Source: Trebouxia sp. TZW2008
Lineage: Eukaryota > Chlorophyta > Trebouxiophyceae > Trebouxiales > Trebouxiaceae
Assembly: GCA_002118135.1 (NCBI GenBank)
Contig: BDIU01000286.1
Span: 62,001 to 126,000, forward strand
Direction: 5' to 3'
DNA length: 64,000 bases
Positions within the stretch are counted from its first letter, which is position 1. The number at the start of each line of letters is the position of its first letter. Below the pieces are notes generated by a model. That model searched no databases, had not been told where the DNA came from, and saw only the letters and a program-made list of their open reading frames with translations. Position numbers and translations under genes: made by a program. Positions 28,928-63,794 of this stretch are shown in pieces.

Positions 28928-31900
28928 ATGGCAAGACCACAGAGTCCCAGGCATCGGCGGCCGCGGCAATTCCAAGACGACAGCGAGCAGCCTTCTGCCA
29001 TGCTTTTGCCAGACTCTCTCCCTCAGCCCTCTGCCCGCCTGTCAGATGCTGTGTCAGAATCATCTTCAAGCCGTCTGTCAGACCTGAACAGGGCAGCCAG
29101 CTTGCAGCAGAAAGCAAGCACCTCTGTCTTGTCCAGAAGGTGAGTGTACCTCCCTTCTAAGCGCTCCGTTTGAAGTACAAAACAAGGCAGTCAATCATTA
29201 TGGCGCAGCAGTCAAGTGATGCATTGATTGTGCCTTGCAAGCGTAATGATCCTGTTTGCAGTAGCCTCGACAATCAACTAGACCTGGAATCAGTTGCACA
29301 AAAACAGTGGTGGCTGCGCACACGCTTTGTGACCACCATACTAGTCAACCTGGGAAACATCATGGAAAGGGCAGATGAGCAAATACTGCCAGCCCTGTAT
29401 GGCTTTGTGGCTGCTTCCTTTCACATTGGCCCCACCCAGCTTGGGTACTTGACGCTCAGCAGGGCGCTTGTTCAGGCAGTTGCATCACCTTTGGGAGGCA
29501 TTTTAGGTGAGCTGAGTGTACTGTAAACCCTCGATGCAAACAAAATTGATATAGAAATACAGTGGCCTTCCACAGTGTATTTTGGAACAGTTTGCGGCCT
29601 TTGGACTGCAGTTGCAATCTGGAAGAAGGAGTCCAAATACAGTAACGCTTGGGAAAGACTGTATTTCCTTGGGAGCAAATGCAATCATTGCATCAGCAAG
29701 TTTACTTTACTGACTGCATTGAGCTATCTTTTGATATGCAAACCTTGGCCTTTGGCAGCATTGACCTGGCTCATAGCTCAGCAGCATCTGTTGTCACATT
29801 CATTTCAAGTAACCTTTGTCGAGCTCACAACACCACGCTTGCTATATGCATTTGCACATAGCAACAATGTTGCCGTGAACTCATAAGGCACTTGCCTGGC
29901 AACCCTCATGGGTCATTGCAGACCTTGGCACCCTAGCATAACCACCTTGACCAATACACAGCAATGCAAATGTGCCTCTCAACAAGCATGCCTCACCTCA
30001 TGCATGGACTGGCTGTCAGTGCACGTGTTTGAGCCCTCAACACGCTGGTAGGCAGTTGTACATGGTTCTGAAGGTGGAGCAGTCATTGGCCAGGGCAGAA
30101 AAGCATGTCGTATACTGCTGCACTCAATCAGGGCGCAGGTTCCGGCAATCCAGCCTGAGTGTCTGTGCAGGGCACAACTTCAACAGGGTGTGGGTCATCA
30201 CGGGGGGTTGTCTGCTGTGGGGAGTCATGACAGGGGGGTTCAGCCTATGCACAGTCCTCTGGCAGGTAAACAATCCTTCAAGCCTCACTCTTCAGTTGTG
30301 CTTGAATGATGGCAGTTGTCAAATCGTATTGCAGCGATGGACATGTCTTGCTCTGCAGCAGACCAGTACAAAGCAAAGATCTCCACTGTGCTGAGGCCAT
30401 GCTCAACAACCTCACAGCTGGTGATTCTCAAGTGCAATAAGTGACGTGCTTGCTCTGACATGATCTGCCACACCTTCCAACAGCCATGTTTCTGCCTTGC
30501 AATGACTTCATTGCACACAAACTGCAACAGCATGTGTAATACCTGGTGTAGCAGAATGCAATGTTCATTCATGCATGTGCATATGTTGGTGCAGACATGA
30601 ATATGCCAAGAAAGACTTTGCGTTGACAGCAACCCACACTCTGCCTACCTATGCTCAAGTCTCAGACACGATTTGCAGTGTACTTCAGAACTCAGAGAAA
30701 GTGCAAACAACCTGTCATTTGTAGCCATACACCCAACTACTGAAAGCCAGGTGGTTGCAGGGAATGGTGCTGTCAGCCGTCAACAACTTGGGTCTATCCC
30801 ATGTGATCCCCCATGCTTAGAGCATCACTGCTGACCACTGTGGCAAACCAGACAGGGACAAGACCTTTGCGGCTTTACACAAGGTCAACGCTCTTGATGA
30901 TTGTAGGGAATGGTGCTGTCAGCCATCAATGGTGTGGGTCTGTCACTTGTGATCCCCAATGCCCAGAGCATCACAGCTGACTACTACGATGAGCTGGACA
31001 GGGGCAAGGCCTTTGGGGCGCTGTACATGACAAGTGCCCTTGGAGGTGCTTTTGGCTCCTTGTATGCCACCAATCAAGGTGAGACCTGTGTCACGTGGTG
31101 TTATAGTGACAAGCATTGACAAGCATTGCTAGTATGATGTAACAGCATCCTTCTGCAGCGAAGACCAGACAAAGGTTCTGCTGCACTTTGGCAGTTTCAG
31201 TTTTGGCACCATGTCAGCGCTTGACTGCTGTCTGAATAATGTCTCAGTTTTTCGAGTATCCAGAAGCACAATCCTTAGTTGGCCTTGCCTGAGCATGAAA
31301 TGTGTGATTCATGTTGTGCGTTGTCAACCGCGTGCATCAGCAATGTGAAAGTAGCTGCATACTGACCAGGCACACGCTAGCAGTGTGACTGGCATGCTAG
31401 TGTATATTGTCTGTTGCATGTGAAGCAAACTTTTGTTGGGATAGCATTCAAGCCCACACAGTGCTTTGCTAGCACAAGAGCATCTATAAACTGCCATCAT
31501 CAAGTACTGCTTACTGTGTTTTACTGGCGGCATCACAGCAAAAGCATTTGTCTGTTGAAGGACAAGTCAGCTGTGTCTAAGACTTGTCATTGCGCCCTTT
31601 GCTTGGTGAGGTTGAGTTGTGTGATTAGTGAGTTTGAGTTGTGTGCCTAACTCAGTTGGGTATGACTCCTTTGGCATTGAGTGGTGGAGAGTGGCCTTCC
31701 TACCCATAGGCGTCATCAGTGTTGCACAAGGCATCAGCAATTTCTTTGCCTATGCCCCATTTGTAATATCAAAGGACAATGTTGGCTGATGAGAACAATG
31801 TGTGATTGAGTATGTGTGCGTGACTCAGGTGGGTACACCCCCTTCGGCATTGAGGGGTGGAGGGTGGTGTTTCTGACCATAGGCATCATCAGCTTTGCAT

Positions 31901-34900
31901 TGGGCATTCTCAACTATTTCTTTGCCCATGACCCTCGCTACGGTCAGGACAACAAGACAAGGTTGAAGGAGCACCAGCATGGCACCAGCTTTTTGAGCTC
32001 GGTTGCTGAGATGAAGCGAGTCATTGTCATCCCTTCTTTTGCCATTATCATATTGCAGGTGTGCACTAGACCCTGATGACTGCCTTTCCTGACCTCATTA
32101 GTCATTACTTGTATTCATTTGTTATCCATTTTGCAACTCAAGATGGCATTGCTTTTGGACAATCTCTGCATGCCCATGAGTGCAATTCAGCCCTCAGTAC
32201 ATGCTCTATGATGCACTCTGCATGCAATAAGGTCTTCAAAGAACATGAATTTGCATATCAACTCAGCGCAACCAAGCACAGTCTCAAAGCGAAACCAGCT
32301 TCCTCACAGAGTGATGGGTGCTGGGTCCATCCCTGTTGAGGTTCCGGTCTTCTCCACCCTCTACTTCCAGCTGCTGACATCAGTGTGATATATCCTTTGA
32401 CCTGTTGTAATGTCTTGTATGAGCAGCTTCTTTGCAGGGTGTTGCTGGGTCCATACCTTTCCAGGCTCTCGTCTTCTTCACCCTTTACTTCCAGCTGCTG
32501 GGTTTCTCGAACTTTGCTGCCAGCGCTCTCATGTCAGGCTTCTTGTTTGCAACCGCGTTTGGGGGCTTGCTTGGCGGCTGGATAGGCGACAAGTGAGTGA
32601 GGATTCTCTTAAATAATTAATGTGTACAGTACCACTTGCATGTACCGTGATTATAATTGATCGAAAATGACATGGATACTCACATGGACGCTCAGTTGAA
32701 TCTCTGCTGCCTGTGTACTGTGATCTTTCGGGGGTTGAGTCTTATGACAGTGAGCTGTGACAGCTTTGTCTGTGCAATATGCATGATAAACCATTTCAGC
32801 TGCCTAGGTGCTGAAGGAGTTCACCTGCCATAGGTTGTGATGGCCTGCTTGGCAGGTCAAAACAGTGCAAGCATTTTGCAAACACTGCAGAATTGCCCTG
32901 CTGCACTGTAGATCCATGCATGCAGAAGCGACCACAATCAGTGACAGGAAGATCTCCATGCACCAAAACAGCCCTGTTGTCTGCATAGAGGCTATCCTGT
33001 TGCTGTTTGTGAAGGCTTTGCAAGCTTGCAAGGCGGTACAGCTTGAGCAGCGAGGGCAGCAGCAACTCTCAAAGCAAGCCCAAAACAAGCTGACGCAGCT
33101 TTCAGTATGACTCTCGTGCTCAAGCGAGGAAAAGTACTTGCGGTGTTGCCAATGTGTTTTACTTCAGCAATTGTACCAGGAGTCGACGTTGAGTAGGATG
33201 CCAAGATCCAACAAAGAGTATGGTGCCATACGGTCTTGTAATGATGTTGAGTAAGTTCAACATGTGTTCACTGCAGGGCAGCAGCGCGCTACCCCAACCA
33301 TGGTCGCATCGTGGTGACTCAGCTCAGCATTGGAGTGGGCATACCTATGACAATTCTGCTGCTGAAGGTGAATGCTGTCCACCTGCACTAGCTGGAAACA
33401 TTGCTTTGTTGTTCAACATAGCCACCCTGCCATGAACTGCATGGCTGCCTGATTACACAGCCCTGTTTGTGCTCAGTGTGGCCTCTATACATTCTCTGCT
33501 TTGAAGCGTGCTACGCTCTTGTCTGGTCGTGCTGCTCATGGTGCTTTATGACCTGTACATTGTGTGTGTTCTGTCCTGCTCATGCTTAAGGCGGCTGCAC
33601 AGCAATATCAGTGTCAATGCATGCCAACTAGCCCCAACTACCTTGTTTGATTGCTAAATATCAAAGTAACAATGGTAGAATCAAGCTTTGGATGCTTGAA
33701 TTAAAGTTGTGGGTCACTGCTGCCAGGGTGAATGTCTTCCTGCCAAAGCAATTGCAATTGCTCACAGGGTTTGTTCATTGAGTCAACTGATGCAACGGCA
33801 GGCTTTGACTTTGCTGCCGCAGAGTTATTTGTGTCTGTCTGCAGGGGCTGTCCTATGCGTCAACTAATGCAATGACTTGGGTGTACGCCTTGATGGGGTT
33901 ACTCATCAGTTGGGCAGCTCCTGCCTGCAGAATCTCAATCTTTGCCTAGATACTGCAAACTCACTTGTCCCATGAGACGGCAGCAGACAGTTCAACCTGC
34001 TTGCATGGGTTGTCGTATGCTTCAACAAATGCAATGGCTTGGGTGTACGGCAGCCTGCCGGCCCTGATGGGGTTGATTATCAGTTGGGACGCCCCTGCCT
34101 GGAATGATTCCATTTTTGCTGAAAATGTGCCACATCATTGGCACCTGCTCATGTTGTATCAGTCCCCTGCAATGGCTTGGGTGTATGGCAGCCTGCTGGC
34201 CTTTGGGGTGCTCAGCAGCTGGGCGGCCCCTTCCTGCAACGACCCCATCATTGCTGAAGCAATCCACATCGTTGTCACCTGCTCATACAGCTTGTTGTCT
34301 AAGTCCCCTGATGCAATGGCTTGATTGCACCTGCTTGCAGGGTTTGTCGTATGCGTCAACTAATGCAATGGCTTGGGTGTATGGCAGCCTGCTGGCCCTG
34401 ATGGGGGTGCTTATAAGTTGGGCAGCCCCTGCTTGCAACAACCCAATCTTTGCTGAGATTGTGCCACCGCACCTGCGCAACATGATCTACTCCTTTGACA
34501 GGCAAGCACTGTACATCCCTATTGCTTGTTTTTCAGCCTTCATACAACATGCTGCCTTATTTGGGCAGTATGATCTGTAAACATGCAAGCATCCCTTGTT
34601 CATTTGACAGGCAAGCATTTGTTGCTGTCCAGTGTTTTTGTTATTGCCAACCCAAATTTTGCTGAGGCTGTGCGGCCTTACCTGCGCAACATGATGATTC
34701 ACTCTTTTGACCTGAAAGTGCATGTGCATGTGCACCATGTGCGACTACAGGTCAGTTGAGATGGCGTCAGCAGTTGCTGCTCCTCCTCTTGTGGGTTTTT
34801 TCGGCAAAGAGAGAGTTGTTCTCTGCAATTGGCTACTCCCTCATGTCAAAGTAACAGTGTTACGATCAGCTTTCTGGCATCACAGGTCATTTGAGATAGC

Positions 34901-36156
34901 GCTAGCAGCATGTGCTTCCCCCCTTGCGTGCTTCCTGCCATCAACACTTGAAGAACCTCTTTGGCTGCAAACAAGGGTGTCACAAAAATCATAGCCCAAA
35001 TAACCATGTTTCAATACAGGTCTTTTGAGATGGCATTGGCAGCATGTGCTTCCCCCCTTGTGGGCTTCCTAGCGGAGAGGGTGTTTGGGTTCAAGGGGGC
35101 AGCAGCAGCAGGGGAGGGGGGTGGCACCAGCCCAGATCAGGGGGAAGACTTGGTCAAAGCCAAGGCACTTGGAAACGCCCTGCTGGTGTGTCTGGTTGTG
35201 CCCTGGACCATCTGCTTGATAGTCTACACAGGTGACGCTTCAATGCCAGCACACTGTAAGACGACAACAACAAGTTGACCACAAGGAAACCATAGTGCTC
35301 AACCACATACACGGAGGCTTCCTTCCACATGATCTTGTTGTTTCCCAATGATGAAACCTCAAAGGCAATACGCATATTCAACAATAAACCACACGGCCTT
35401 GCCATAGGTGAACAAGCTTGTATCCCATCAGTACAACGGCTGCTATACTTTGGTCCCCAGGAAAATGTCCCCGTATCAAATTGTCCTGACTGAGAGGTGC
35501 CATCACGCTCAGATCTACAGAACACAGTGATTGCTTCTTAACTGCATTGTCCTTACATCAAGAACAATCTAGTGTTGAGTGTCACCGTAAGAATACATAA
35601 CTGTAATAGCAACATATGACACTGATGGTGCAGGGCTGCACTTTACATATCCCAAAGACAAGCAGAAAGCCCAAGATGTCAAAGAGAAGCTGATTGCAGC
35701 ACATGATGTGGAGTCTCATGGTGGCACAAGTCAACAGCATCAGGTGCTTGCATGCCTGCATTTGTTGTGGGCTTGTTGTCTTTGCATATCTGCTTGTCCC
35801 AGGCAATGCAGGCAATGTATGTTATCGCTTGACTGCTTGTCTAAGGCGATGTATGCTGTTATATCTATGATATATGTTATCATACATATGATCTTAGGTT
35901 CAATCCGGACAGTTTTGGAATGTGAAAAGCCGCTTGTGTGGCTTCATTGCACACTACCCACAGCTTTGCCTTGCATATTGTGCATATGCACAAGTGTTGG
36001 ATGACGGTTTTGATGTGTGCCCATGACTTGCAATTGCCCTGGCAGGTTCACATTTTGGCTAAATCTTGAGCAGCCCTGTGTTTGTTGCAGGCAATTGTGC
36101 AACAACCCATAGACGAGTCAAGACCACTGATCGCGGGCAACTCCCAGAGATCATGA
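28928..36156 (+). CDS. Spinster-like major facilitator superfamily transporter (582 aa, 11 exons)
   Basis: Exons: 28928-29139, 29262-29506, 30171-30265, 30907-31078, 31829-32058, 32438-32592, 33277-33367, 34341-34501, 35020-35231, 35634-35743, 36091-36156. All phases join, giving 582 residues. A soluble Ser-rich N-terminus of about 70 residues precedes a twelve-helix MFS fold. Visible MFS hallmarks are GNIMERADEQILPALYGFVA (helix 1), FNRVWVITGGCLLWGVMTGG, AQSITADYYDELDRGKAFGA, GIEGWRVVFLTIGIISF and GGWIGDK (intracellular loop). The C-terminal region contains SFEMALAACASPLVGFLAER and LHFTYPKDKQKA. These match plant/algal Spinster-type carriers, in animals a lipid or sphingosine-phosphate exporter group; the substrate here is unknown. 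The intron after 34501 starts with GC instead of GT. At least six exons are flanked by decayed copies. It converges with the O-methyltransferase 281 bp away. Confidence 0.85.
30757..30890 (+). pseudogene. Decayed upstream copy of MFS exon 4
   Basis: It repeats exon 30907-31078 from its acceptor: GCAGGGAATGGTGCTGTCAG, then GTGATCCCCCATGC and GACAGGGACAAGACCTTTG. A TAG replaces the CAG of the intact exon (GCTTAGAGC against GCCCAGAGC). Confidence 0.85.
31640..31780 (+). pseudogene. Decayed upstream copy of MFS exon 5
   Basis: Starting AACTCAGTTGGGTATGACTC it repeats the first half of exon 31829-32058 (GGCATTGAGTGGTGGAGAGT, CCCATAGGCGTCATCAGTGT) and ends before the donor. One base is missing relative to the intact exon near GTATGACTCC. 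Confidence 0.85.
32310..32385 (+). pseudogene. Decayed upstream copy of MFS exon 6
   Basis: GGGTGCTGGGTCCATCCCTG then GTCTTCTCCACCCTCTACTT and CCAGCTGCTG repeat the first 80 bases of exon 32438-32592, including the helix coding for FFTLYFQLL. The copy ends abruptly at GACATCAG. Confidence 0.8.
33840..34320 (+). repeat. Three 5'-partial copies of MFS exon 8
   Basis: Copies begin at about 33845, 34008 and 34165 and repeat exon 34341-34501. The first keeps the acceptor (CTGCAGGGGCTGTCCTATGC) but lacks the GGCAGCCTGCTGGCC segment. The second reads GLSYASTNAMAWVYG-like through ISWDAP. The third starts within the exon. None has a donor at the homologous place. They fill most of the intron between exons 7 and 8. 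Confidence 0.85.
34600..34940 (+). repeat. 3' copies of MFS exon 8 and 5' copies of exon 9
   Basis: At 34603-34720 a copy keeps the 3' half of exon 8 (TTTGCTGAGGCTGTGCGGCC, CTGCGCAACATGATGATTCA). At 34748-34820 and 34882-34940 two copies keep the acceptor and 5' part of exon 9 (CAGGTCAGTTGAGATGGCG and CAGGTCATTTGAGATAGCG against CAGGTCTTTTGAGATGGCA). Downstream copies of one exon and upstream copies of the next thus share the same intron. Confidence 0.8.
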
Positions 36157-37691: not shown

Positions 37692-37766
37692 GCTTCCCTG
37701 TGGAGCCAAAGCTGGCGAGGCAAGCTGCCTGTGGAACGCAGGAGCCCCATGAGTCGAGGCTTGCAT

Positions 37767-38098
37767 GCATCGAGTCAAACGACAGCAGCCGCATACTGAC
37801 CTGTCAAACAAGTAAGTTCCAAGCTGCTGATGAGCAGCGTCTAGAAGTGACGCTGCAGCTGTTCACAGCCTTTGTCTCTGGTGTCGTTCACAGAATGTCA
37901 AGTCAGACATGCCGGATCCGAGGGGTGATCGGCTGAAACTGACCAGACCTCTCTGTAACACGTTTGGTTTTTGGTTTACTTAGATGCCTGCTTGCAGCCC
38001 ATTTGCTCCGCAGCAACGTATGTGTTTTGTGTCAGCACGCACTCTGTATCGCCGAGCATGCATGCATGAGATGTTTGGCGATGTTTCATCTCCTTCAT
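37767..38098. promoter_or_regulatory. Shared divergent promoter region, O-methyltransferase / glutathione synthetase
   Basis: Start codons of the two genes lie 332-465 bp apart, depending on the starts chosen, and point away from each other. The interval must hold both promoters and 5' leaders. I see no TATA box or recognisable operator I would defend. Confidence 0.4.
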
Positions 38099-38155
38099 AT
38101 GGCATCGCAAATTTGCAGCGCTAGCGACGTGCGCGCGGGCAACTCTTCCATTGCA

Positions 38156-41100
38156 ATGCTGCAAAGTGCGGCGCCAGCCCAGCAGCAGCGCCTATTCCCA
38201 AGACTTGCCTTGAGAACGCAATCAACACTGCCATCACGCACCATCTACAGGAGCGTTAGCGTCTTGCAAACGTCCTGCAAACGCAGCAGGGCATTTCAAT
38301 CAGCACAGACATCTTCTCCAAAGCATTTGCTGGGCGCCCGCGCGGCTGCGGCTGCCGAGCAACAGACTGCTTCGATGGCAGCTGGGGTCGATGCCAAGTC
38401 AGATGTCCCCATGCAGGAACTGGTAGACCTGGCTGTTGTCTGGGCATGCCAGCATGGCCTGGTAACCATCTCATTCCAAACTGATTGCAACACGCTTGAC
38501 CATCCTGCAACAAAGGGGAAACCAATGCCAACTGAGTTTTGGCGTGGGCGCTGATGTGATCAATAGTCATAGCAAGCAACGAGCTTTGCTGCCCACCTGA
38601 TGCTCCAAAAAGAGCTAAAGCTGCTTATCACAATAGCTAGCAAGCGTTACTGCTGATTATCAAGGCGCTTTTGGCAAAACAAGTTCCTGCATTTTGCAAG
38701 TCTTTCCATTGCTTCTGTACATACCCAGCTGCGGCAGAGACTCTCACTAGAAAGCATGCGAAGAATGACAAAGCTGACGATAATATTGCAGATTGTTGGC
38801 GCAGGGCTGTCAGAGAAGCCCCTGGCATTTATGCATGGGCTGATCAACAACCAGGTTTTACAAATTTTTGCTTCTTGCAGATTGTTGGGGCAGGGCTATC
38901 AGAAAAGCCCCTGGCAACCATGCATGCACCATTGACAGTCCTACCAGCTCCCTTTCCCAGAAAAAGCTTTGACAAAGCAAAGGCTGCCATGCAAGTCTTC
39001 AACACTCTGATTGACCGGGTGTCCCAAGATGACGAATACCTACAGACCACACTGCAGCCTGCTGCAGAGTATGACGACTTCACTGTAAGTCTTGTTGCTT
39101 GCATTAGGTCTGCGGTGTCACGCAAGTTCAGCATGTCAGACATGCAGGAAGTACAAATCTGTGCTTGTGCACTCAAACCTTACCTGGCTGCAATTCACTG
39201 ATCTAACGCCCATTTGTCTAGGCCATTTCTATGTGGGTTTGATTGATTCTGCCAGACCTCAACATGCAATGCATCTAATCCTTGTTGCGGTTCAGAAGAT
39301 TGCAAGTGTGCTCAAAAGTCACGTTCACACGGCAGCCAAGCTACTTGCATTTCACCAATGTGCTCAATAGCTGTATACACATGCAGGCCAAGCTGCTAGG
39401 AATCCACCACAAAACAAAACATGTGAGGCATCAGCGGCAGTCCAATGACCTGGTGCTGGCCCTGAACAGGTCTGACTACATGTTGGATGAGCCCAGCAGC
39501 ACACTCATGCAGGTGAGCTTCCTGACAAACATACTGAATCTCGTCTTGTCTGGCCCACTTTGAAGAGGAAGCCACCTGAACATGCTGAAATGCTGTCTGG
39601 TGTTGTCAGCCAATACTTGCAACTTGACAGATCTGCTGCTCTCAACATGGGAGTTCATGCGGTCATGCTTCATCAGTGCCTTAGCCTTCTGAAACCTGCA
39701 AGGCCAAGGGGTTCTGCATAGCTATGGCCATGCACAACATGCTGAAGCCATTCTGTACTTCTGCTTCCCTGCACTGACACGGCATGCTGCATGCATACAC
39801 GCTTCAAGATTCAAGTTCGTCTGCCAGTTTGGTGATATGTGTTACCACGCAGGTAGAGCTCAACACCATCTCCTCCTCTTTTGGCTGCTTATGCACGTTG
39901 GTGGGCCGCATGCACCGCTATATCATGGAGCATCAGGGCGCTAGTCAGCAGGTCAGCCAACAAACTGCTTCTGCTCGTTTGCCTCAAAGTCACACAGACT
40001 GCAAAGCTATTGTTGTTGGATAGACACTGTGCGCTTCAGTTGCTATTGGCCAAAGCAGCTGAGCATTTTGTTGTTGAACAATCTGCCCGACACACAACAA
40101 GACAGCTAGGCATGTTGGTTCCTATGCTGACATTCTGTCTGTCAGCTGCGTCGGGTTCTTACAATCAAAGCTTTCTGCCCTATTCATGCTAGCCCACGAG
40201 ACAAGCATCAGCACAGCTGATGATGTAACACTGCTGTCACGTGAGATCCTGTGAGGTATCACAACCAAACAGATCTTTGCCAAACGTTCTGTCCAAAGTG
40301 GCAGAAGCAGCTCACCTGATTGCTCCAAAGCTTAGACTGTGCATGTCAGCTGCTGTCTGCATGTCACAACCAAGCTCCTCTCTGCCACTGAGTCTGCCCA
40401 TTTGACAGGAACTAGCACAGCCATGCATTACCGCTTGAACTGTGCATGTCAGCTGCTGTCTGGATATCACCGCTAAGCCTTTCTTAGCCAAGTGTGGCCA
40501 GCCCATTCAGCCTAGAAAGGGTTAGACGTAATATCTTAGGCAGCAAGATATGCTCAAGCGGGCTGCACCTGTGCATACTTAGTGCGCAACATTGACATTG
40601 GGACGGAATCCTTGAACACATCAACTCAAGTTTTAACACCAGCATGCCTGCAGTGATTGCATTGGGCTCATCAACATTGCCCTTGGGCACAAGTCAAGTA
40701 CAGTGCAGTTGAGATGGTCCAACGCAGCATGTGACAGACTTGCATGGAGGCAACTGATTACGTTTGTCTGTACCTAGCATGTGAGTTTCAAAGCTTACCC
40801 AGCAAGCGTTTGTATTGAGTGCGTGAATGAAGTGCAATACAGTGCAGTTTGGGACAGGATTTATGTCTGGTTGCAATTCTTTAGGCGCAGTAATGAGCTG
40901 TACGATGCCGGGAATGAAGTCAACACGCAGCCTGCATGTGACTTGCCACCAGTCAGTCCGTCCCCCGAATCATGCACATTTCTGTGGAGCATGGGCCATA
41001 AACACACCTTACATCCTATGTCAATCTGTGATGTTGTGGTGCATATATGGCTCTTGCACATCAGAACTGTGCACAATAAAGGGGCAAAATGCAACGGTGG

Positions 41101-51675: not shown

Positions 51676-54600
51676 TTATGCCTTTTCAGCACGCTTGAGA
51701 ACTGTGACTGGCATTCCTCCCTTAGGAGAGATGGTGATGCCCTGTTTGAGCTCCAAGGGATGTGTCCTCAGCTTCTCTGACAGCTGGAAAGTGTGACGCT
51801 GATGTAGCCGTACGAGAGCAATGACTGCCTCCTCAACTGCATTGGCACAAAGCAAGAATCAGATGTCAATGCAAAGTTCACTGGAACCAAATCATGGTCA
51901 TAAGAATGTTTGCAGACTTCAAGAGAGGCCGTGACCATGAAGAGTGCACTGTACAACTCCGCCCAAAGTTCCCATTTCAACGGGGGCAATGCCAAAAAGA
52001 TCAGGCGAAGCATTTGTGACAGATACATGGGATGGAACAAGAATGCAACCTTTTGTCGACGTCGATGAACTTTCCCTCCAGCAACACGGGTACGCGGGCG
52101 GTGAGAGGTGCTAGAACTTGAACATTCTCTTTTCTGCCAGTACTTATGACCTCAAAGCTGCTGGGTGTATTCAACTCTTGGTCAACAACAGCTAAAGCCA
52201 CCTACCAGCTAGCTTGACGCCAATGCACATTCGGGGTCCCAGGCCAAAAGGCATGTAGGCCATGCCATCGCTCATGTCCCCGCCAGTCTTGCTGCCTATC
52301 CACCTCTCGGGCTTGAAGGCTTCCGGGTCTTTCCAATAGCGGGGGTCATGCTGCATGGTCCAAAGGTTGATGTGCACTCCAGTGCCTTTGGGCAAGAAGT
52401 ACGGCCCCAGCTGCAGCACACAAGGGTTGACTCAGCAGTCTGATACCATTGCGTCTGCTACTGATCCGCAACCAAACAACACTGCGAACACAAGCTTTTG
52501 GAGCAGTACATGCCCTGCCCTGCTACCAGGTTAGCTCAACAACCAGCGCAGACGCTACCTAGCTTTCAAGCCAGGAAGACCGATGAGTCACATTTGGCTC
52601 CCTACCCCAGACTGTACATTCTGTTGATTGATACTGCCATATGAGTTTGTTGCTGGTGCTAGGATGTCTCCTCACACATTGCCGTCATTTCATTAATTTA
52701 TTATAAACGTGGGCTAGGCAGGCTCAGCAGGCCCAACTAGGTACGTACAGAGGCAATCAACTGTCTCCAACCAGTTCAATCATGTGCTAACCAAAAGCAG
52801 CAATGTTGGACATGAAGGGCGTAGAGGTCCTTGTACTCAGTTAACTGCCAAGTATCTCTGGGTTCCCCTTGGCCTAAGTGCCTGATAAGTGCCCAAACAT
52901 TGCTGTGCCTGACATAATGTACCTAAATGGTGGTGCAAACGAACAGTTCGCCTTTTGGTGCACACAAACAGCAGATATGTGTTGCTGTCTAAGACCACGT
53001 ACTCCTGGATTCGCACTAACACAAGATACCTATTGACAAAGCTGATAGTCTAAGTGAACAACAATGCTGCTGTTCTTGTGGTGTGATAAGCATGCATGTA
53101 TAATTACAAATCTGATGAGATCTTTGGGTATTTTAAAAGCATGTCAATGGTGATAAAAGGTTCATTTCATGCCCCGAAATTGTAATTCATCGGGTTTCGG
53201 GCAGTAGGGTTTCAAAAACCCTAAGAAAGATTTAAATTTTATTTTTGTTAGGGGAATTGATTAGGTTGTAGGCTTTACGCTTTTAAGCATTTGTTGCGCT
53301 TTCTATGGTGGGGATCAAAACCCGATGAGATATAATGCAGACGTGTTTTATGAGCATTGAAATCTTCCAAACCTGCACCTTTTCTATGGCAACCCCAGTG
53401 AGCATGGTGTTGTCAATGCTTATGACGATTTGATGCCTGTGTATGACAGAGTTACGTTCAAGGTCACAAAGAATAGCATGTCGGAAACTAGATTCAGACT
53501 GTTGGCCACTTGAAGTAGTTGAACAAGCAAGGGTTCGTCTCCTTCCACAAGAATAGTTGTGGGTTTGAATCCGGTATGTTACACTGTGCATCAACAGCCA
53601 TCATGATGATGGTGACATCAATGTATAACCAATGGGGAAGGCTACAGACCTGCACATCCTCTGTGGCAACTCTAGTAAGTATAGTGGCCGGCGGGTACAG
53701 CCTGAGCGCCTCATTGATCACCGCAGCAGCATAAGGAAACTGCTGCAGGTCATCATAGCCTGGCTGGCCTGCAAACTGGTCCACTTCCTGGAGCAAACGC
53801 TGTTGGGCGTTGGGGTTTCTGCCCAACAGGTAGATGCTGAACGCCAGTGTGTTGGCTGTGGTTTCATAGCCTGCCAAGATCATTGTGTTGGTCTGGGCTG
53901 CAATCTGCCTGCAAGTTGTGACAGCAGAGTCGCTTCTCATTTCATTCATTCGTTGCAAACGTGGGCTAGGCAGGCTCAGCAGGCCCATCTAGGTACATAC
54001 AGAAGCAATCAAGTGTCTCCAACCAGTTCGATCATGTGCTAACCCAAACCATTTATATTGCTGCTTGAGTTGCTTCTGATGAGCTGGAGCACAGGCAAGC
54101 AAGAGCAATGTTATGCTTGGGGCTCTAATCTTGCGTCAAGTCAGAAAATCGAAGCTGCTGCTGATGCTGTCGAGCATAACAGTAGCGCAGACATGGTCAA
54201 ATCAGGCACTTGGAAATGCAAAAGTGTAGTATGGATCAAGAGTACACTGTTGCTGTGAAGGGCACTCTGCCTGACACCAGTACCTCCTGTAGGGAGAGTT
54301 CAAGATGACAGGAGCACACTCAGCTGCAAACGCTTTATGCAGAGAACATTACAAATGCCATCAAAGGCAGTGGGGTGGCAAGAGATGGCCCAGGGTGGGG
54401 GTGTGGATGAGAGATGGGACACTCACATGTGATTGAAGGGAGTGCCTGTGGCCTTATTGTTAGCCTTCATCAGCATGGAGATGACACTGTTCTCTGCTGG
54501 CACTGTGTCCTGCAAAACAAGAAACAGTAACTTTGTCATGCATGCCCAGAACTGCAGATTTCAGTGAACATGCTTGTGATTTGACCAAATGAGTAGTTGT

Positions 54601-55371
54601 TGGCCTTCATCAGCATGGAAACCACACTGTTCTCTGCTGGCACTGTGTCCTGCAGAACAAGTAACAGCTAACTTAGCCTCACACGCCGAAAACATGCGGA
54701 TTGCAGTGGACATGCCAATGGAGAAAATTTGATCACATGAATGTCTGCAACTGCTACCACTGTTGCTACCAGATAGGTTGTTGTGCCTAGCAGACAATGC
54801 ACGTACACAGCTTGACACATTTAACATGCAGAAATCTGCTACAGACTAAGGGTATCGGGGTTCACATAGAGTGCTGAGCAACAAGGGATCAGCATTGATG
54901 CATTGCTACACCGCAGATGATACTATAAATGGTTGTTCAATCATTTCTGCTGCAACTTTGCCTTGCAGCTGGCACAGAGTAGCAGAATACCTTGTAAGGA
55001 TTATTGGGGTTGCCCTTGAACCACTTCCATGGCGCTGGAGCTTCACTGTTGCTGTTAAACCTCTTCCTGCTGTTCTGCACACCATGCAAATAACACTGAG
55101 CATAACACGAGAAATGTGGAGATGCAGCGGATGCAAGTCTGCCAAATTTGCCACAGACAAGGATTGCAAATCTGTTCATTCCCTGAACACTCTGAATGCA
55201 GTCAAAAGCCTGATGGGAAAAGTTATGAGCCATTTGCATGCTGACCACTGACAGCAAAACTCCTTTGCTAATGGTATGTACTGCCACAGCATCACCCACT
55301 GCAGTGATGCAAGGGTTCATGTCATGCTTACAAGACTATGGAAAACCACTAGCATTACCATCTCAGCTCTG

Positions 55372-55405
<34 letters not shown>

Positions 55406-58400
55406 CATCATGCAGATGTTGCGTAGCCAACCTCTATCAAGGCATCTGATGCATCATACAGTGTCTCAAAGGCTTCCCTAGACTCAGTCATGCTTTGCCC
55501 AGGAAACCAGCTTGCAAGCTGTCTGATGACAGGCAGTAGCACTCCTGGTGCCACCATGGCTAGCAAGCTCCAAAAGGACGGGTTGGAGTTGTCAAAAACT
55601 GTCTTTGCTGCCTTGACAAGCTCAATCTCCTGGCCCTGGCCAGCACTTTGGGTGTCAAAATTGACCCTGCAGGCACCCAAGTCAAAGGTGACAACATCAA
55701 CTGTGTCTTGAGCAGCAGCAATACTTTGCTGCAATTAGGGCTAGCAAGCTCCAGAATGATGGGTTTGAGTTGTCAAAGACTGTCTTGGCTGCCGCGACAA
55801 GTGCAATTACTGTCCCTGACGAGCATTTTGGGTGTCAAAGTTGACCCTGCAGGCACCGCCAAAAAGTTTGTAAAACACATTGTGTGGTAAAACAGGCTGC
55901 AACAGGGAGCTGTGTTATGTTGCCTGATGACACGAGCTTCCCTTTTCTTCCTGTTTCTTCCCTGGTGCCCAGATGTTGTTTATATTTGTGTCAAGTGCTT
56001 CATGGTCACTAGATTGTGAGTCATGAGGCACAGAAGCAGGTAGGTGCATTTTGTGCAATCCTGACTAGCCAGGCAGGCGTGCTAGAGAAGCAAGGCACTG
56101 CGAATCTGCAGTATCACAGACTGTTGCACAAAGTCAAGTCACTGGCTGACTACATATGCTGACAATCGTGCACCCACCCACAGCAACAACAATACCCACA
56201 TGGTGTGGTCGGTGATGTGGCTAAATGTACAATTGTCAGCACAGATCACAGCTTGGAATTTGAGAGTGTCACCATCGTGTACTATGAGCCTAACGCTTTG
56301 CCCTGAGCAGTGCCACTGGGTACTTGCTAGTGTGACCAAGTGCAAAGCCATACGCTTGCCTTATATGACAACAAAAGGGCTCAAGTATCAAAAAAGGTGC
56401 AGCAGCCTTTTTGCAGTCTGCAGCCTGACCCTGCACAGCTGTTTTTTTGCATGCAACTCAAGTGGCATGCAACAAGAGAGATCCATTGATCCCATTTTCA
56501 CAGGTGAAGTGTCGACTTTGATAATGTTGTTGATGGAAATGCTTTCTGCAAACACTTGTGGCAATTGATATCTGCTCACTCAATTCAGTCAGCCTCCATG
56601 TTGCAAAACTGCGCAGCACAAGTGCAGCTTACCCAAAGGCTGCAGCTCCAATGACTTGCATGATCAAGTTCCCAGCTAGCGGACTAGTGTTCCAGGAATT
56701 ATAGACCTCAAGGATGCAAAGGCTAAAACAATACAGAACAGGTTGTGTAGCAATTTGGAGCAGCTTCAGCGTCTTGAGAGCAGCTCACCCAAAGGCTGCA
56801 GCCCCAATGACTTGCATGGTCATGCATCCATGTAGCTGAAATGAGCCGTATCCACAACTTCAAGCAGCTCAGACAAAGGCTGCAGCTTCATCGAAATAAC
56901 ACACTTCAGCCATGAAGGAGATAGGCTGTGTGCAGAGCTTACCTAAAGGCTGCAGCTCCATTGACTTGCATGGTCATGCGCCCCAGCTGGCAAAAGACGT
57001 CCACCTGCTCGCCAGACTGTGCAGCAGTGGCGAAGTGGACACAGCTCAAAGGGAGCCATGCAAACGAAGAGCTGGATCAGCTGCTGTGACAGGAGCATGT
57101 GCAGCTTACCCAAAGGCTGCAGCTCCAATGACTTGCATGGTCATGCGTCCAAGCTGGCGGAACACGTCCACCTGCTCCCCAGACTGCGCAGCTGCACTGA
57201 GATTAACTTCAAGGGCGTCCACAGCCTGGTTGATGGTCTCAGCGTATGTGCTGAGGTTGGTGCTGTGAAACATTGGGTTGACACCAGCCCTCAAACTGCC
57301 CCAGTATGAGCCCCTGCAGGTGCATCAAGGAGCACAGTCACAGTGAGATAATGCCTTGGGTGCTGTGAAACCTGAGGTTTACGCCGGCCCTCAGACCGCC
57401 CCAGTACAAGCCCTTCATGAGAATTGACCAAGAATTGACCATGCTGTTTTGCAATGCTGCGAATGATGGTGAAGAAGACAAGGGCAGATCAGAGCTGTTG
57501 ATACAGTGATGTGATGCAATGATCTTCATGAGCCCTCAGGCAGATGCAGAATACATCATTGGCTGTGCCAAAATACAGCCAGCAGCAACCTGCTGGGCAA
57601 GATTCAGGCTTTGAGCATGAGCAATTTTGGGCCAGACATCCATGTAGTATGGACCCATGCAGGCAATTCAGTGTGCAGCAGTTGTGCAGCCTAATCCTTC
57701 CACACCGACATTGGTTTCGTTTTGCCTTGACCTGGTTTGCTTGTGTCTATTGCACAGCGCGGGCATGGTGTCTTGTACTATTGCATGCGGACCACGTGAG
57801 AGACGGCAGGCAATGACGTGTGTGGCAGTTGAGCAGCGTAAGCACTGGACAATGCTGGAGTAGAAGGGGGTTGTGAATGTGGCTGTAGATCAAGGACAGG
57901 CTACTGGCGTCTGAACCAAGCAGGAGATTGAAATTTGACTCACGTTGCTATGAGCATGCCTGATCTGACAGCCTCCATGCGCTTGCCAGAAAACAGCGAC
58001 CTGTTGAGTCCAGGAGCAACCCTGTCGTGAAACTTGTTAAAGTCCCGGATTGTGATCTGCCGCACCAAGTTGGGGTCTGCATTGTATGCAGAATGTGAGT
58101 TCAGGCCCGCGGTCCAAGCAACTATCTGTAGGATTTGGTGCAGCATGTCATGCCGACGCAACTGCACACCAAGATATACACGATGCACTTGCCTGCCTTG
58201 CCTGATGTAAAGACAACACAAGCAACAAAATGATGGTGGGGCAGAGTTGTATGTAAACAGCACAAGCAGTCAAAGGTGCAAAGCCCATGTGGGTATGTGC
58301 CAATGATGCTGTGCATTGGCTTGGAGATTGACAGCATGGATCTAACCTGTGGTGACCAATATGGGCTGGCGCACAAAGAACACCTTGAATGTGTCGCCAA

Positions 58401-58790
58401 ATTTGGCTTGCCAATCAGTGTATGCTCTGAACACCTGCTTCTTGCGTATGGTGGCAAGGTTGCCCAGTGGGAAACTTGGAGCTGGTCCAGGAATCTTCCT
58501 GAACTTGAGTCTGGTCTGCCAGTTTGTGCAATAGCTGACCACCTGGAAGGACATGCAACACACATGAGCTCCAGCAAACAGCAGCAATGGAGCGTGAAGA
58601 GCACAGCAGCATGTATGCAAGTGTCGTCTGGCATGTCCTGGGCCATTGCGTGAGGTGTCGTGTCGCTCTGACACTTTGCACAACACGTCACACGTCACAC
58701 AAGACTGTGTCTGCTCACCGCAAGCACCACAAGCGCGAGCACGCATCCGATGCTAGAGGCGTTGTCCGCCAGCATCGCAAAAGACGCCAT
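51676..58790 (-). CDS. Cytochrome P450 (543 aa, 10 exons), membrane-anchored
   Basis: Haem-thiolate monooxygenase. Exons in transcript order: 58790-58719, 58542-58347, 58076-57944, 57313-57110, 55666-55432, 55074-54991, 54509-54427, 53908-53650, 52410-52206, 51836-51676. All phases join. Exon 1 encodes an N-terminal anchor (IGCVLALVVLAVV across the first splice). Hallmarks are IPGPAPSFPLG (proline-rich hinge), AGYETTAN (I-helix oxygen-binding motif), EALR in NEALRLYPP (ExxR), PERW, and FGLGPRMCIG (haem loop with the Cys ligand). GRMTMQVIGAAAFG and the general layout resemble the CYP3-clan/CYP711 side of the superfamily, which is only a guess; the substrate is unknown. Exons 4, 5, 7 and 8 are flanked by decayed copies. 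The gene is head-to-head with the Urb2-like gene, 496 bp between start codons. Confidence 0.93.
52711..52792 (+). repeat. tRNA-related SINE-like repeat, copy 2 of 3
   Basis: GGGCTAGGCAGGCTCAGCAG then GCCCAACTAGGTACGTACAG, AGGCAATCAACTGTCTCCAA and CCAGTTCAATCATGTGCTAA. It lies in P450 intron 8, inverse to the gene. A-box-like GGCTCAGCAGG and B-box-like CAGTTCAATC are about 45 bp apart. Confidence 0.7.
53205..53223. other. Inverted telomere-box palindrome
   Basis: TAGGGTTT, three bases, AAACCCTA: a perfect 8-bp stem made of the plant-type telomere word in both orientations, in an AT-rich part of P450 intron 8. It may be chance, a replication/repair scar, or a telo-box-like protein site. Confidence 0.5.
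53366..53412 (-). pseudogene. Downstream 3' copy of P450 exon 8 donor end
   Basis: On the + strand CCTGCACCTTTTCTATGGCA then ACCCCAGTGAGCAT matches CCTGCACATCCTCTGTGGCA then ACTCTAGTAAGTAT at the end of exon 53908-53650. It is 3' of the exon in transcript order. Confidence 0.7.
53963..54045 (+). repeat. tRNA-related SINE-like repeat, copy 3 of 3
   Basis: 83 bp from GGGCTAG to CTAACCC; these ends could pair 6 of 7 as an acceptor stem. Inside are AGGCTCAGCAGG (A-box-like, with GGC/GCC able to form a D stem) and CCAGTTCGATCAT (B-box-like), about 45 bp apart as in a tRNA. I could not form a sound anticodon or T arm, so it is not called a tRNA gene. It lies 54 bp from the acceptor side of P450 exon 8. 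Confidence 0.7.
54595..54662 (-). pseudogene. Upstream 5' copy of P450 exon 7
   Basis: On the + strand TTGGCCTTCATCAGCATGGA and ACTGTTCTCTGCTGGCACTG, then TGTCCTGCA, repeats 54470-54515. It holds the acceptor and the 5' two thirds of exon 54509-54427 and lies upstream of it in the transcript. Confidence 0.9.
55375..55402. repeat. (CA)n microsatellite
   Basis: An uninterrupted CA run of about 28 bases, just downstream of P450 exon 5. Confidence 0.95.
55735..55860 (-). pseudogene. Upstream 5' copy of P450 exon 5
   Basis: GCTAGCAAGCTCCAnAAnGA, then GAGTTGTCAAAnACTGTCTT and GGTGTCAAAnTTGACCCTGCAGG, matches 55557-55674. It keeps the acceptor and the 5' half of exon 55666-55432. Confidence 0.9.
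56620..57040 (-). repeat. Three to four 3' copies of P450 exon 4
   Basis: Copies near 56936-57035, 56782-56826 and 56624-56690, with a fragment at 56868, repeat CCAAAGGCTGCAGCTCCAAT and GACTTGCATGGTCATGC with the preceding donor (GCTTAC or GCTCAC on the + strand). The longest also carries the CGTCCACCTGCTCnCCAGAC block. All are 3' of the intact exon 57313-57110 in transcript order and hold its 3' end. Confidence 0.9.
57355..57445 (-). pseudogene. Upstream 5' copy of P450 exon 4
   Basis: GGTGCTGTGAAACCTGAGGT then CGCCGGCCCTCAGACCGCCC and CAGTACAAGCCC matches 57255-57313 (GGTGCTGTGAAACATTGGGT, CCAGCCCTCAAACTGCCCCA). It keeps the 5' part of the exon, upstream in the transcript, so exon 4 is stuttered on both sides. 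Confidence 0.85.
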
Positions 58791-59286
58791 GAAGATGCTA
58801 TGCAGCTGCAAGCCTCTGTCACGAGAACACCTCGTCAAAGTCTCACACGCGATCACTTCTTACGCAGGATGTATGCTCCGAAAAGCATCACAACACGTCA
58901 AGATAAGCAAGGGAGGACTTTCGACGAAGCAACGTGGTAGCAGTGTGTGCTCGAAGACGCGCTCGATGTTCGCGATGCTCTGTCTCGGACAAGGTTTACC
59001 TGAACACTGCAACTTCAGGTCTACAGTGAACGGAGCACACGTGGACCGCCATGTGACATTGGGTTCTTAGTAAAGCAGCAATTAGTCGCATAGGGCGTTT
59101 GCGATTGACGCCGCCCTTGCTGACTTCGACAGAAGCACCTGCGCTTTTCTCAGCGCAAAGCGCAGCGAGGCGCTCAGGCAGTAGCCTGATTGTGAATTTG
59201 ACGTCATAGAGACGCTTATCAGGGTCCGATGTCATTTTGACTGACGCGGGTAGACGGGACGAGGTTGAGAGTTGACACTTTAGGGC
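58791..59286. promoter_or_regulatory. Divergent promoter between P450 and Urb2-like gene
   Basis: Start codons at 58790 (-) and 59287 (+) are 496 bp apart. On the minus side a GTAAAC donor at 59000 and a TTGCAG acceptor just before the P450 ATG suggest an intron in its 5' leader. The interval is more GC-rich than its surroundings and contains GCGCAAAGCGCAGCGAGGCGC. A minus-strand frame of 79 codons from 59236 ends at that donor and is out of frame with the P450; it might be an upstream ORF. Confidence 0.45.
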
Positions 59287-62200: not shown

Positions 62201-63794
62201 CACCGGGCAGTGCAAACACACATGGCTGACATCTGGCAACTATTGTGGCTTGCTGCTCAAGGTTAGCTGCTGATTTGACTAAGGCAACAGCAGATGGCTT
62301 CACGCATTTTGGTCCAGTTGTGGGGAAAATCTCAAGTCTGTTTTGGGGTGATTGCACTTGTGTAGCTGCAATGGAGCATCAAGATGGTCTGCAGGGGCTG
62401 CAGTGAACGTTTGGTGCCTGCAATTGCGGCTTATGAATTCTTTTTTCTCTTGCAACCAAGATGCATTTGTATGCACGCCTGCCTTTCATGCAGACAGAGG
62501 CAGCCTTTCACACAGCAAACTTCTGCTGCTGGTGAACTGACATCTCACCCACAGTGAGGTCAGTAAGCTTCGGCTGTTGGACGTGCATGGTCATTGCACC
62601 ACAGGCTTGCGATGCAGTGTGAGCACATTTGCATCAATGCAGGTCATGGCGGGACAGCAGTGGCCACAGCTGTGGCAGCAGGACTCTTGACTGCTTATGC
62701 TGAACTGCGGCAGCTGCAGTTCCTGCTGCAGTCACTTCTGGATGCCCTGATCACACAGCAGCCCAGGAATGCTGCTGACATCATCTGTACACCTGAGTTT
62801 GTGGGGAGCCTAAAGAAGGTAACACCATGTCAGCAATTGAGCTGCAATTTTCAATGCAGTCCCTGCTGGACGCCTTGATTGTACAGCAACCTGGGAATGC
62901 TGCTGACATCATCTGTACACCTGAGTCTATGGGAGGCCTGCAGAAGGTAGAACCAGTTTGACTGGTCGTTTTGCAACAACCAATAATCTTGCAGTGGCAT
63001 TGAAGAGACTTTGACACACTCTGTGCTGCTCATCAACAGTATGATTGCCAACTGACACCCACAACAGCACGCTACGTGATCCATGCCATACATGCCTTGC
63101 AATGTTGTGCATGAGTTTGATGTTGCAGAGCAATAACGCACGCCTGACACATGCACTTTGCTTGTACAGCCTACAGGGTATCATCTGGGGATGGCTGATA
63201 CCAGAATGCTGTATTTCTCCTTTTTGTAGGCTGTGCGTGAGATGCCTTCTGGTCAAGCTGTTCCAATGGTCAGCTTCCTGGCTCAACACATACCATCACT
63301 ACCCCTCCTTTCCACTAGCTCCTCGGCTCAAGCAACTTTTGGCGAAGTCCTTTCGACGTGCATTGCATCCATCAGAACAGAAGTGGTTTCAGCTCCCAGT
63401 CTTGCCAAAACTGTGTCTGATTTGGTCACCGTTAGGCTCAGTCCACTGCTGGTGCCGCCGATGTCATCGCTGAGTCAGACAGCTGGCAGCTCAGCACAGC
63501 ACAGCATGCCTGTGGTTGCATTCAAAGCTCAGCATGCACAGCATGCACAGCATGCACAGCACGCTGAGTCCTTTTGGAATTTCAAGGCTCAGCATGCTCA
63601 GATGGCAGCTGCTGCTGGCAGCCTGAACCAAGGTGATGCAGCTTCTGAGCAGCTGCTGGCCTGTCTGCTAAGGTTGTACTGCGGGGCGATTGACTTGTAC
63701 GGGCAATGCGCAGCGAGTCAAATGCAGATTGAGCCCCTGCCAGGTCAAGGCACAGGCCTGTCATCTGCTAAGCCTTCTGGAACCCATCACACAG
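59287..63794 (+). CDS. Urb2/Npa2-like nucleolar ribosome-biogenesis protein (multi-exon, continues past the exons seen)
   Basis: Urb2/Npa2 acts in early 60S pre-ribosome assembly in the nucleolus. Confident exons: 59287-59345, 59425-59916, 60125-60662, one ending at 61545, one starting at 61735, 62130-62261, 62643-62818, 63230-63794. The stretch between 60663 and about 61040 probably contains another exon (KLHKALILNALLPQS near 60825) that I could not phase, and the end of the exon begun at 61735 is open. Family evidence is best at AELRQLQFLLQSLLDAL and at EFVGSLKKAVREMPSGQ, split across the intron at 62818/63230, which match plant Urb2 blocks (SELRQ and the PEGQ motif) as I remember them. The rest is helical, as expected of this alpha-solenoid family. 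The last exon ends in phase 1, so the gene runs on, possibly off the window. Start chosen at the first ATG of a short exon with a GTAAGT donor. Confidence 0.65.
62855..62950 (+). pseudogene. Downstream 3' copy of the Urb2-like exon ending at 62818
   Basis: GCAGTCCCTGCTGGACGCCT, GGGAATGCTGCTGACATCAT and CTGTACACCTGAGTCTATGG then AAGGTAGAA repeats 62730-62822. It keeps the exon's 3' half and a donor. The frame is still open, so use as an alternative donor cannot be excluded. Confidence 0.9.
63520..63575 (+). repeat. AGCATGCAC coding microrepeat
   Basis: Four tandem copies of a 9-bp unit inside the last visible Urb2-like exon encode a QHA tripeptide run (AQHAQHAQHAQHAES). The unit is a multiple of three, so length changes are tolerated. 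It suggests an unstructured linker. Confidence 0.8.

Follow-up and report, generated by a model that had tools for sequence, protein, structure and literature searches.

Oriented partial exon copies in the introns of a Trebouxia genome

Why do the introns of a green alga hold decayed pieces of the exons beside them, and why does nearly every one-ended piece keep the exon end that belongs to its side? The question is raised by a 64,000-nt stretch of Trebouxia sp. TZW2008, from the genus that is the commonest green alga of lichens. This stretch (the window) is C272:62001-126000 (contig BDIU01000286.1) of a 68.5-Mb, 527-contig assembly and has a G+C content of 49.3%. A first-pass annotation had described intact exons flanked by partial copies in four of its genes: an MFS carrier, a glutathione synthetase (GSH2), a cytochrome P450 and an "Urb2-like" gene. 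Copies 5' of an exon were said to keep the acceptor and the 5' exon part, and copies 3' of it the 3' part and the donor. The pattern is genuine and extends beyond the window, and geometry together with selection explains most of the side rule. Still surprising are how dense the copies are, how regularly they are spaced and how soon homology is lost outside the splice sites.

Partial exon copies in the window

Exon models were built with a protein-to-genome spliced aligner, using full-length proteins of Trebouxia relatives as queries (P0114 and P0115 for MFS; P0005, P0004 and P0007 for GSH2; P0014 and P0016 for P450). The best named relatives were Trebouxia sp. C0009 (GSH2), C0010 and C0009 (P450) and C0005 (MFS). 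Several relatives of 472-554 aa sit on contigs of just 1.7-2.5 kb, which suggests that these are transcripts. The models comprise 31 coding exons (MFS 11, GSH2 10, P450 10). Relatives of the same gene agreed on its exons, save for the outer ends and one GSH2 case in which the P0007 path took the copy piece 43018-43090 instead of the first part of exon 5. The P0115 alignment places the MFS first-exon start at 28937, the GSH2 start exon is probably longer than 38330-38461, and the final P450 bases up to the stop were taken directly from the sequence.

29000..36156 (+): MFS carrier gene, spliced alignment to P0114 and P0115; P0114 matches Pfam MFS_1
29000-29139, 29262-29506, 30171-30265, 30907-31078, 31829-32058, 32438-32592 (+): MFS exons 1-6
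33277-33367, 34341-34501, 35020-35231, 35634-35743, 36091-36156 (+): MFS exons 7-11
38330..50075 (+): GSH2 gene, spliced alignment to P0005, P0004 and P0007; P0005 matches Pfam GSH_synth_ATP
38330-38461, 38881-39084, 39387-39512, 39853-39951, 43638-43778 (+): GSH2 exons 1-5
45235-45425, 46670-46827, 47424-47631, 49100-49232, 50004-50075 (+): GSH2 exons 6-10
51676..58775 (-): cytochrome P450 gene, spliced alignment to P0014 and P0016; P0014 matches Pfam p450
58775-58719, 58542-58347, 58076-57944, 57313-57110, 55666-55432 (-): P450 exons 1-5
55074-54991, 54509-54427, 53908-53650, 52410-52206, 51836-51676 (-): P450 exons 6-10
62643-62828 (+): exon of the fourth gene, predicted by the gene finder

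Each exon was searched against its own surroundings (+/-4 kb, E<=1e-2), and a second search used exons with 150-nt flanks on both strands (E<=1e-3). The exon-only search found 38 intronic partial copies at 14 of the 31 exons. All 26 copies on the 5' side start at exon position 1-24 and stop before the exon end. On the 3' side 10 of 12 copies extend to 9 nt or less from the exon end. The remaining two are an interrupted copy's 28-nt fragment (GSH2 exon 8, 118-145 of 208) and a copy that stops 15 nt short (MFS exon 8, 99-146 of 161). No inverted copies were found in the two-strand search with flanks. The two-sided arrays described at P450 exon 4 and GSH2 exon 8 were recovered in the exon searches, and GSH2 exon 5 also has copies on both sides. 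Copies differ from their exon by 4-27%, and assembly error is therefore an unlikely cause.

The annotation thus stands for the MFS, GSH2 and P450 genes. In the fourth gene a copy was seen at one exon only, and the name "Urb2-like" is unconfirmed because six of its open reading frames (ORFs) matched no Pfam family above the cut-off.

Copies found by both searches:
30752..30873 (+): 5' copy of MFS exon 4 (positions 1-113 of 172, 78% identical)
31628..31758 (+): 5' copy of MFS exon 5 (1-106 of 230, 76-77%)
32319..32376 (+): 5' copy of MFS exon 6 (6-63 of 155)
34648..34695 (+): 3' copy of MFS exon 8 (99-146 of 161), short of the donor
34734..34936 (+): two 5' copies of MFS exon 9 (34734-34798, 34882-34936)
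38786..38837 (+): 5' copy of GSH2 exon 2 (1-46 of 204, 87%)
42853..43583 (+): array of five 5' copies of GSH2 exon 5
44035..44076 (+): 3' copy of GSH2 exon 5 (114-141 of 141 plus donor)
45507..45573 (+): 3' copy of GSH2 exon 6 (128-191 of 191 plus donor)
47041..47348 (+): two 5' copies of GSH2 exon 8
47709..48382 (+): 3'-copy array of GSH2 exon 8, six hits, two of which belong to a single interrupted copy
48647..48955 (+): two 5' copies of GSH2 exon 9 (period 218; spacer identity 92%)
57359..57413 (-): 5' copy of P450 exon 4 (1-55 of 204)
55712..55857 (-): 5' copy of P450 exon 5 (1-134 of 235, 80%)
54597..54715 (-): 5' copy of P450 exon 7 (1-53 of 83, 92%) with 64 nt of intron

Copies found by the search with flanks, most of them also by the exon-only search:
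33751..34257 (+): 5'-copy array of MFS exon 8 (33751-33799, 33840-33967, 33995-34133, 34168-34257), three of four also exon-only
45689..46562 (+): array of six 5' copies of GSH2 exon 7, five of six exon-only
56619..57025 (-): 3'-copy array of P450 exon 4 (56929-57025, 56864-56890, 56780-56830, 56619-56683), three of four exon-only

Further copies:
49222..49470 (+): 130-bp tandem duplication (95%) that includes the GSH2 exon 9 donor and the final 11 nt of that exon
62855..62955 (+): 3' copy of the fourth gene's predicted exon (85-185 of 186, 82%)

MFS exon 8, the exon with the largest MFS copy array, seemingly has a GC donor (CAG|gcaagc; 34502).

The side rule in a wider genome sample

Does the rule hold beyond these genes? 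The wider sample, 260,661 bases in all, consisted of the window and 20 further stretches from this genome. Exons outside the window genes were predicted with a simple gene finder trained on those genes. When one gene at a time was left out, 22 of the 31 exons were overlapped (15 exactly), and all 17 predictions scoring >=5 overlapped a true exon. With 5 as the cut, and after predicted exons <60 nt had been dropped (170 to 151), 151 further internal exons >=60 nt joined the 31 known ones, giving 182. Each was searched within +/-1.5 kb at E<=1e-4.

Copies lie beside 60 of the 182 exons, 46 of these being among the 151 predicted ones. The 152 hits divide into 125 conforming to the rule, 3 violating it, 22 internal fragments, 1 full copy and 1 inside the exon. 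The dependence of the retained exon end on the side therefore extends beyond the window, with 125 of 128 one-ended copies obeying it. As a control, 400 random intervals were searched with exons and copies masked; they gave 51 conforming, 30 violating, 28 internal, 20 full and 51 inside (125:3 versus 51:30, Fisher p 1.7e-11 at the hit level). Per interval, 54 of the 182 exons have a conforming copy and 3 a violating one; for the 400 random intervals the numbers are 27 and 22. The exon with the single full copy (C178 1415-1522) is itself located where a 3' copy of the preceding exon lies, and is probably a false exon call. In the count of 170 predicted exons, made before the short ones were dropped, 92 hits obeyed the rule, 4 violated it, 12 were full, 19 internal and 1 inside; 11 of the 12 full copies belonged to predicted exons <60 nt.

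Pfam family tables of the whole genome (best-scored matches only, neighbouring same-strand pairs judged by eye) gave further cases. At least two pairs fit among the 134 matches listed for PF00069 (C73, C130; C273 is ambiguous), and at least four among the 95 listed for PF00067 (C88, C332, C31, C21, three being weak matches; C25, C244 and C117 are ambiguous). No fitting pair was seen among the 24 matches listed for PF00005.

Local duplication is not confined to exons. In the 260,661 bases 262 direct local pairs and 1 inverted pair were found at E<=1e-6 (an order-1 Markov control gave 0 of each), and detectable local direct repeats make up about 15% of the sample. Around the splice junctions of 177 of the 182 exons (those near record ends were left out), 15-26% of the 90-nt segments on both sides of the junction have local duplications; in intron-flank segments the values are 15% and 21%. 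The process is thus not exon-specific, even if its survivors are. No local duplicate (E<=1e-6) was detected in five of 17 sampled stretches (L004, L008, L014, L016, L020), while the others have up to 27 pairs. Duplication looks patchy along the genome.

Geometry, spacing and selection

The side rule follows because the exon stays complete when just one end of a duplication lies within it. A one-ended relic beside a surviving full exon is the geometry of such an event, and the fragment falls on the side of whichever exon end got duplicated. The first-pass annotation had added that one full exon must survive for the pattern to arise. This requirement is not needed: geometry suffices, and selection comes in only for the internal and whole-exon classes, which are missing. 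Random duplications of 154 +/- 34 bp placed on these exons (overlap >=25 nt) have one end inside in 77% of cases, both ends inside in 15% and span the exon in 8%. The observed numbers are 125, 1 and 1, with about 19 and 11 expected for the last two classes (array-level p 0.0004 for internal and p 0.02 for spanning). Both classes do occur in random intervals. Internal duplications would add coding bases, and whole-exon copies would keep both splice sites. Given the deficit, purifying selection probably removes both.

Neighbouring junctions are spaced 154 +/- 34 bp apart (100 of 112 spacings, those <=240), or 166 +/- 22 bp for the 35 spacings with blocks >80 nt. Spacing is weakly linked to block length (r 0.33). 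The step of about 155 bp resembles a nucleosome repeat. The tetramer CCTG is found at 20 exon breakpoints versus 8.1 expected, a weak excess uncorrected for multiple testing or shared arrays. At exons with copies on both sides, the 5' and 3' parts do not overlap in 11 of 12 cases versus 8.4 expected, which at p 0.04 is too weak to use. It was also considered that copies act as mini-exons with a new donor, and this was rejected: a GT lies near the inner end in 22 of 69 5' blocks and in 21 of 69 exons, giving no signal.

Copies decay while the exon stays constrained

Are the copies themselves of use to the gene? In window arrays with at least two copies, the changes found in a single copy alone are distributed 43:35:46 over codon positions 1:2:3, and those found in the exon alone 3:2:15. 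In 20 independent predicted arrays the ratios are 80:77:106 and 7:2:31. Because copy changes are spread near evenly over the codon and exon changes gather at third positions, the copies are seen to decay without visible coding constraint and the exon to be constrained.

Alternative, poison or decoy exons held by selection would agree with the better preservation of the exon-like parts and splice-site region relative to the spacers. On the other hand, copy-unique changes mostly ignore codon position, and 12 of the 15 indels in exon-copy alignments break the frame. The junction AG is kept in 58 of 69 acceptor-side copies versus 535 of 688 internal AGs (p 0.28), and the junction GT in 27 of 37 donor-side copies versus 314 of 444 internal GTs (p 0.85). 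Junction dinucleotides kept no better than internal ones give no sign of maintenance. The MFS and P450 proteins of relatives also align without extra segments (one GSH2 relative used a copy piece). A function for the copies is therefore very unlikely. As to the decoy splice sites that the copies were said to leave, many AG and GT dinucleotides do remain, with no sign of upkeep.

CG dinucleotides are retained in 43% of cases in the copies (99 of 230), a loss that would fit freely mutating, probably methylated DNA. Across sampled loci L001-L023 CpG stands at about 0.3-0.5 of expectation, and TGCA and GCATGC words are common. This CpG depletion suggests a methylated genome.

Copies were probably made at different times, as had also been proposed. 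Differences between copies of one exon are third-position-heavy (0.183, 0.153 and 0.283 by codon position), unlike the near-even copy-unique ones. If copies decay evenly, the excess should reflect synonymous change of the exon between captures, and it supports capture from the exon at different times. A paralogue adds to this: the P450 exon 4 paralogue on C21 (73% identical) has two 3' copies of its own exon end. For the C88 paralogue, no copy was present among the matches listed at E<=1e-3. At one third-position site in the last codons, three window copies carry the state of the window exon; in the paralogue one copy matches the paralogue exon and the other does not. This pattern is equally explained by copying after the paralogue split.

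Homology on the intron side

How far into the intron does the similarity reach? On the acceptor side (69 copies), ungapped identity falls from 0.82-0.85 in the exon to 0.58-0.59 over intron positions 7-15, 0.41-0.42 over positions 16-30 and 0.33 over positions 31-50, where chance would give 0.25-0.30. The corresponding donor-side values (43 copies) are 0.65 at 4-6 nt, 0.52 at 7-10 nt and 0.31 at 21-30 nt. Grouped by identity class, the 121 exon copies have median extensions of 5-22 nt on the intron side; for the 56 nearest copies the medians climb with identity through 5, 12.5 and 20 to 42.5 nt. Random intervals extend 66-88 nt in the three classes <90% identity and 0.5 nt in the six pairs above.

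These values were compared with simulated tandem duplications, drawn from the nearest copies under assumed rates, in which exon and splice site were held under constraint. At an indel ratio of 0.1 the simulated extension is 41-74 nt (z 5.8-12.8, z>2 in 94-100%); at 0.25 it is 21.5-66.5 nt (z 5.3-11.4), with z>2 in 89-100% overall. The ratio measured in 20 non-exonic pairs is 0.06. The observed intron homology has z of 0.8-3.8 by class over all copies and 1.5-6.2 over the nearest copies. At 16-30 nt the nearest copies show 0.36-0.45 ungapped identity in every class, versus a simulated 0.51-0.78 (ratio 0.1) or 0.40-0.62 (ratio 0.25). Among pairs of >=80% identity, z>2 was reached in the spacers of 9 out of 59 scored (one pair of 60 was unscored). 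Homology falls short of 0.9 of the offset in 54 exonic pairs out of 70, and in 32 of the 72 others.

Tandem duplication followed by decay, the mechanism first offered, thus accounts for orientation, one-endedness and spacing, but it fits the intron side only in part, homology there being shorter and weaker than simulated. A hypermutable intron could explain part of the misfit. Exon blocks look younger than spacers, and since exon-side similarity outlasts the simulated decay, we infer patchy re-copying from the exon.

Proposed recurrent duplication with re-copying, and what weighs against it

The explanation given an even chance is that direct duplications of about 155 bp recur, arising during DNA repair, and are followed by patchy re-copying from the exon. 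Where one end of a duplication fell inside an exon, the full exon would be kept and a one-ended relic left on the side away from the break, while internal or spanning duplications would be removed by purifying selection. Relics would decay as new copies were taken from the exon at various times. The exon may also overwrite older relics patchily, in the manner of short-tract gene conversion between repeats 155 bp apart. Differences within copies are clustered (variance in 15-nt bins versus shuffles, p 0.001 and p 0.003), for which other causes are possible.

Several points weigh against this explanation. No gene-conversion event was directly seen, and identity has no trend with distance from the junction, such as repeated copying anchored there might leave. 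The misfit to the simulation shrinks when only the nearest copies are taken, 35 of 56 of which have intron homology with z>2 (median z 3.7), and the 14 nearest copies of >=90% identity reach a median of 42.5 nt into the intron. In the L017 array (exon 2814-3086) spacers are 90-96% alike and exon parts 78-89%, the reverse of the usual order. Copy-unique changes in the predicted arrays (80:77:106) tilt toward third positions, a lean that may reflect exon states captured at different times. Hits within one array are not independent. Lastly, 151 of the 182 exons come from our own gene finder, 10 of whose 32 test predictions missed all true exons; all ten scored <5, the later cut.

The L017 stretch has, at about 2045-3086, five 5' copies of its predicted exon in steps of 147-157 bp.

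Some of these points favour a simpler history, a plain contiguous tandem duplication of about 155 bp with neutral decay, in which exon-side similarity lasts since the exon itself barely changes. It explains the orientation of the copies, why one-ended ones dominate and why their spacing is shared, and the nearest copies with intron homology near the junction are as it predicts. Over 112 copies, the share with z>2 grows with identity class, the lowest having 27% and the highest 86%. Young cases include an intron part, such as P450 exon 7 (64 nt) and GSH2 exon 9, whose copy shows 150 nt of intron homology. Set against this are an intron-side homology shorter and weaker than simulated and the little residual homology in spacers of pairs of >=80% identity, which leave plain duplication possible but doubtful.

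Spacers mostly without detectable homology, and copied blocks often shorter than the spacing, would instead suit proximal capture during break repair, in which exon-end pieces and unrelated filler are put into a nearby break. Such capture predicts either exon end on either side, whereas the expected side holds 125 of the 128 one-ended copies and inverted copies are practically absent (1 versus 262). It is accordingly judged improbable.

Many alike units inside introns could also point to a mobile intron-like element (introner). However, the GSH2 exon 7 array has no other match among those listed in 68.5 Mb (very common words skipped), and P450 exon 4 matches solely paralogous P450 exons and copies beside one of these. 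Spacers match the 260-kb sample about as often (11 of 49) as random segments do (58 of 245). An introner, or else an assembly error, is extremely unlikely.

A more speculative idea, which we consider unlikely, is that exon ends are themselves the copying unit. Each copied piece would start some 15-20 bases into the intron from the 3' splice site, or some 10 into it from the 5' splice site, and reach mid-exon. Such pieces could be laid down repeatedly one nucleosome-length step (about 155 bp) off, with exon-centred chromatin or a splice-site RNA as guide. If this were true, splicing anatomy itself would shape where the genome duplicates.

Intron length

The copies had been offered as the reason for the long introns, and in the three modelled genes copy-bearing introns are indeed longer, with a median of 696 nt (14 introns) versus 363 nt without copies (14 introns; p 0.004, 28 introns). 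Intron length correlates with copy number (rho 0.64). Longer introns offer more room for copies, so the correlation supports growth by copying and does not prove it.

Relation to known systems

In plants, patch-mediated repair and paired nicks give small tandem duplications. Tandem duplication by fill-in is known (PMC8355091), and Pol theta joining is a further route to small tandem duplications (PMC5730883), as far as the available text of both papers goes. Fill-in by CST-Pol alpha at staggered breaks (PMC8355091) likewise yields direct local tandem units with one copy intact. Unlike in fill-in duplication, detectable homology here is often shorter than the spacing and fades near the splice sites.

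A closely related published process is repair-mediated proximal duplication in primates, described in the accessible sections of PMC2671141 with a median of 147 bp, a mean of 162 bp, filler of 1-68 nt and some chimeric inserts. Its donors in 824 human events include 4 partial exons and 2+2 full exons; one exon copy is inverted, and two full exon copies that were tested lack coding constraint. Both systems are short, local and recurrent and copy exon and splice-site pieces. Here, however, about one third of the tested exons are involved, orientation is strong and spacing regular. The earlier statement that no named description exists thus holds in part: small repair duplications that copy exon pieces are published, while the density, orientation and spacing of the partial exon copies look new in light of the accessible text. 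The kind of duplication is known.

Tandem exon duplication and mutually exclusive exons (PMC9013439, PMC9741552) also place extra exon-like sequence by an exon in an intron. Those exons are, in the portions of these papers available, used or expressed at least partly, whereas the present copies are one-ended and decayed. Two traits of tandem exon duplication do not characterise the present copies: a duplicated whole exon with both splice sites (one full copy at 182 exons) and coding constraint (copy-unique changes near even by codon position). Exonize (PMC12343006) has classes for partial and degenerate exon copies, and in 20 genomes more genes had those than full-exon duplications; its available text reports no side rule, unit spacing or codon-position test. 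Intron gain by tandem duplication (PMC4974935, as far as accessible) shares the principle that splicing makes an in-gene duplication tolerable. In this alga no gained intron was seen, and the introns already present are longer if they contain copies.

Term searches of the accessible text of two Trebouxia papers gave little. In the A48 paper (PMC12712428) "tandem" and "exon" are absent, with one occurrence of "intron" and three of "duplication"; none of "intron", "tandem" and "exon" appears in PMC11523091. No title or abstract start with the side rule or such an intron landscape was found in the literature searched, a search that subscription papers mostly fell outside.

Why the copies matter

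Intron growth can be read here event by event, each relic giving a break site, a copied exon end and a rough age. Selection on exon duplications becomes visible because half copies stay while internal and whole ones are rare. Decayed splice sites beside real ones form a natural set for testing spliceosome choice. The regular spacing and early homology loss outside the splice sites make the mechanism testable in a culturable alga.

Gene prediction in Trebouxia may take decayed half-exons as exons, since our own aligner chose copies twice, where the true exon was out of range or the copy scored better. One case is the P0007 path at GSH2 exon 5. In the other, the alignment range ended at 49000 and both GSH2 relatives picked the decayed copy 48882-48930 as exon 9; with a wider range P0005 and P0004 both place it at 49100-49232.

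Other features of the window

GSH2 intron 4 also contains an array of 305-bp units at 41243-42664 (about 4.6 copies, whole units 76-82% alike), which no exon search matched. An intron-less open frame of 474 codons, which we take by eye to be O-methyltransferase-like, lies between the MFS and GSH2 genes (36438-37862, -). Among the few non-local repeats of the window is a segment of 90-115 bp, about 90-94% alike, in three copies up to 9.6 kb apart (44357-44446, 52685-52799 and 53937-54051).

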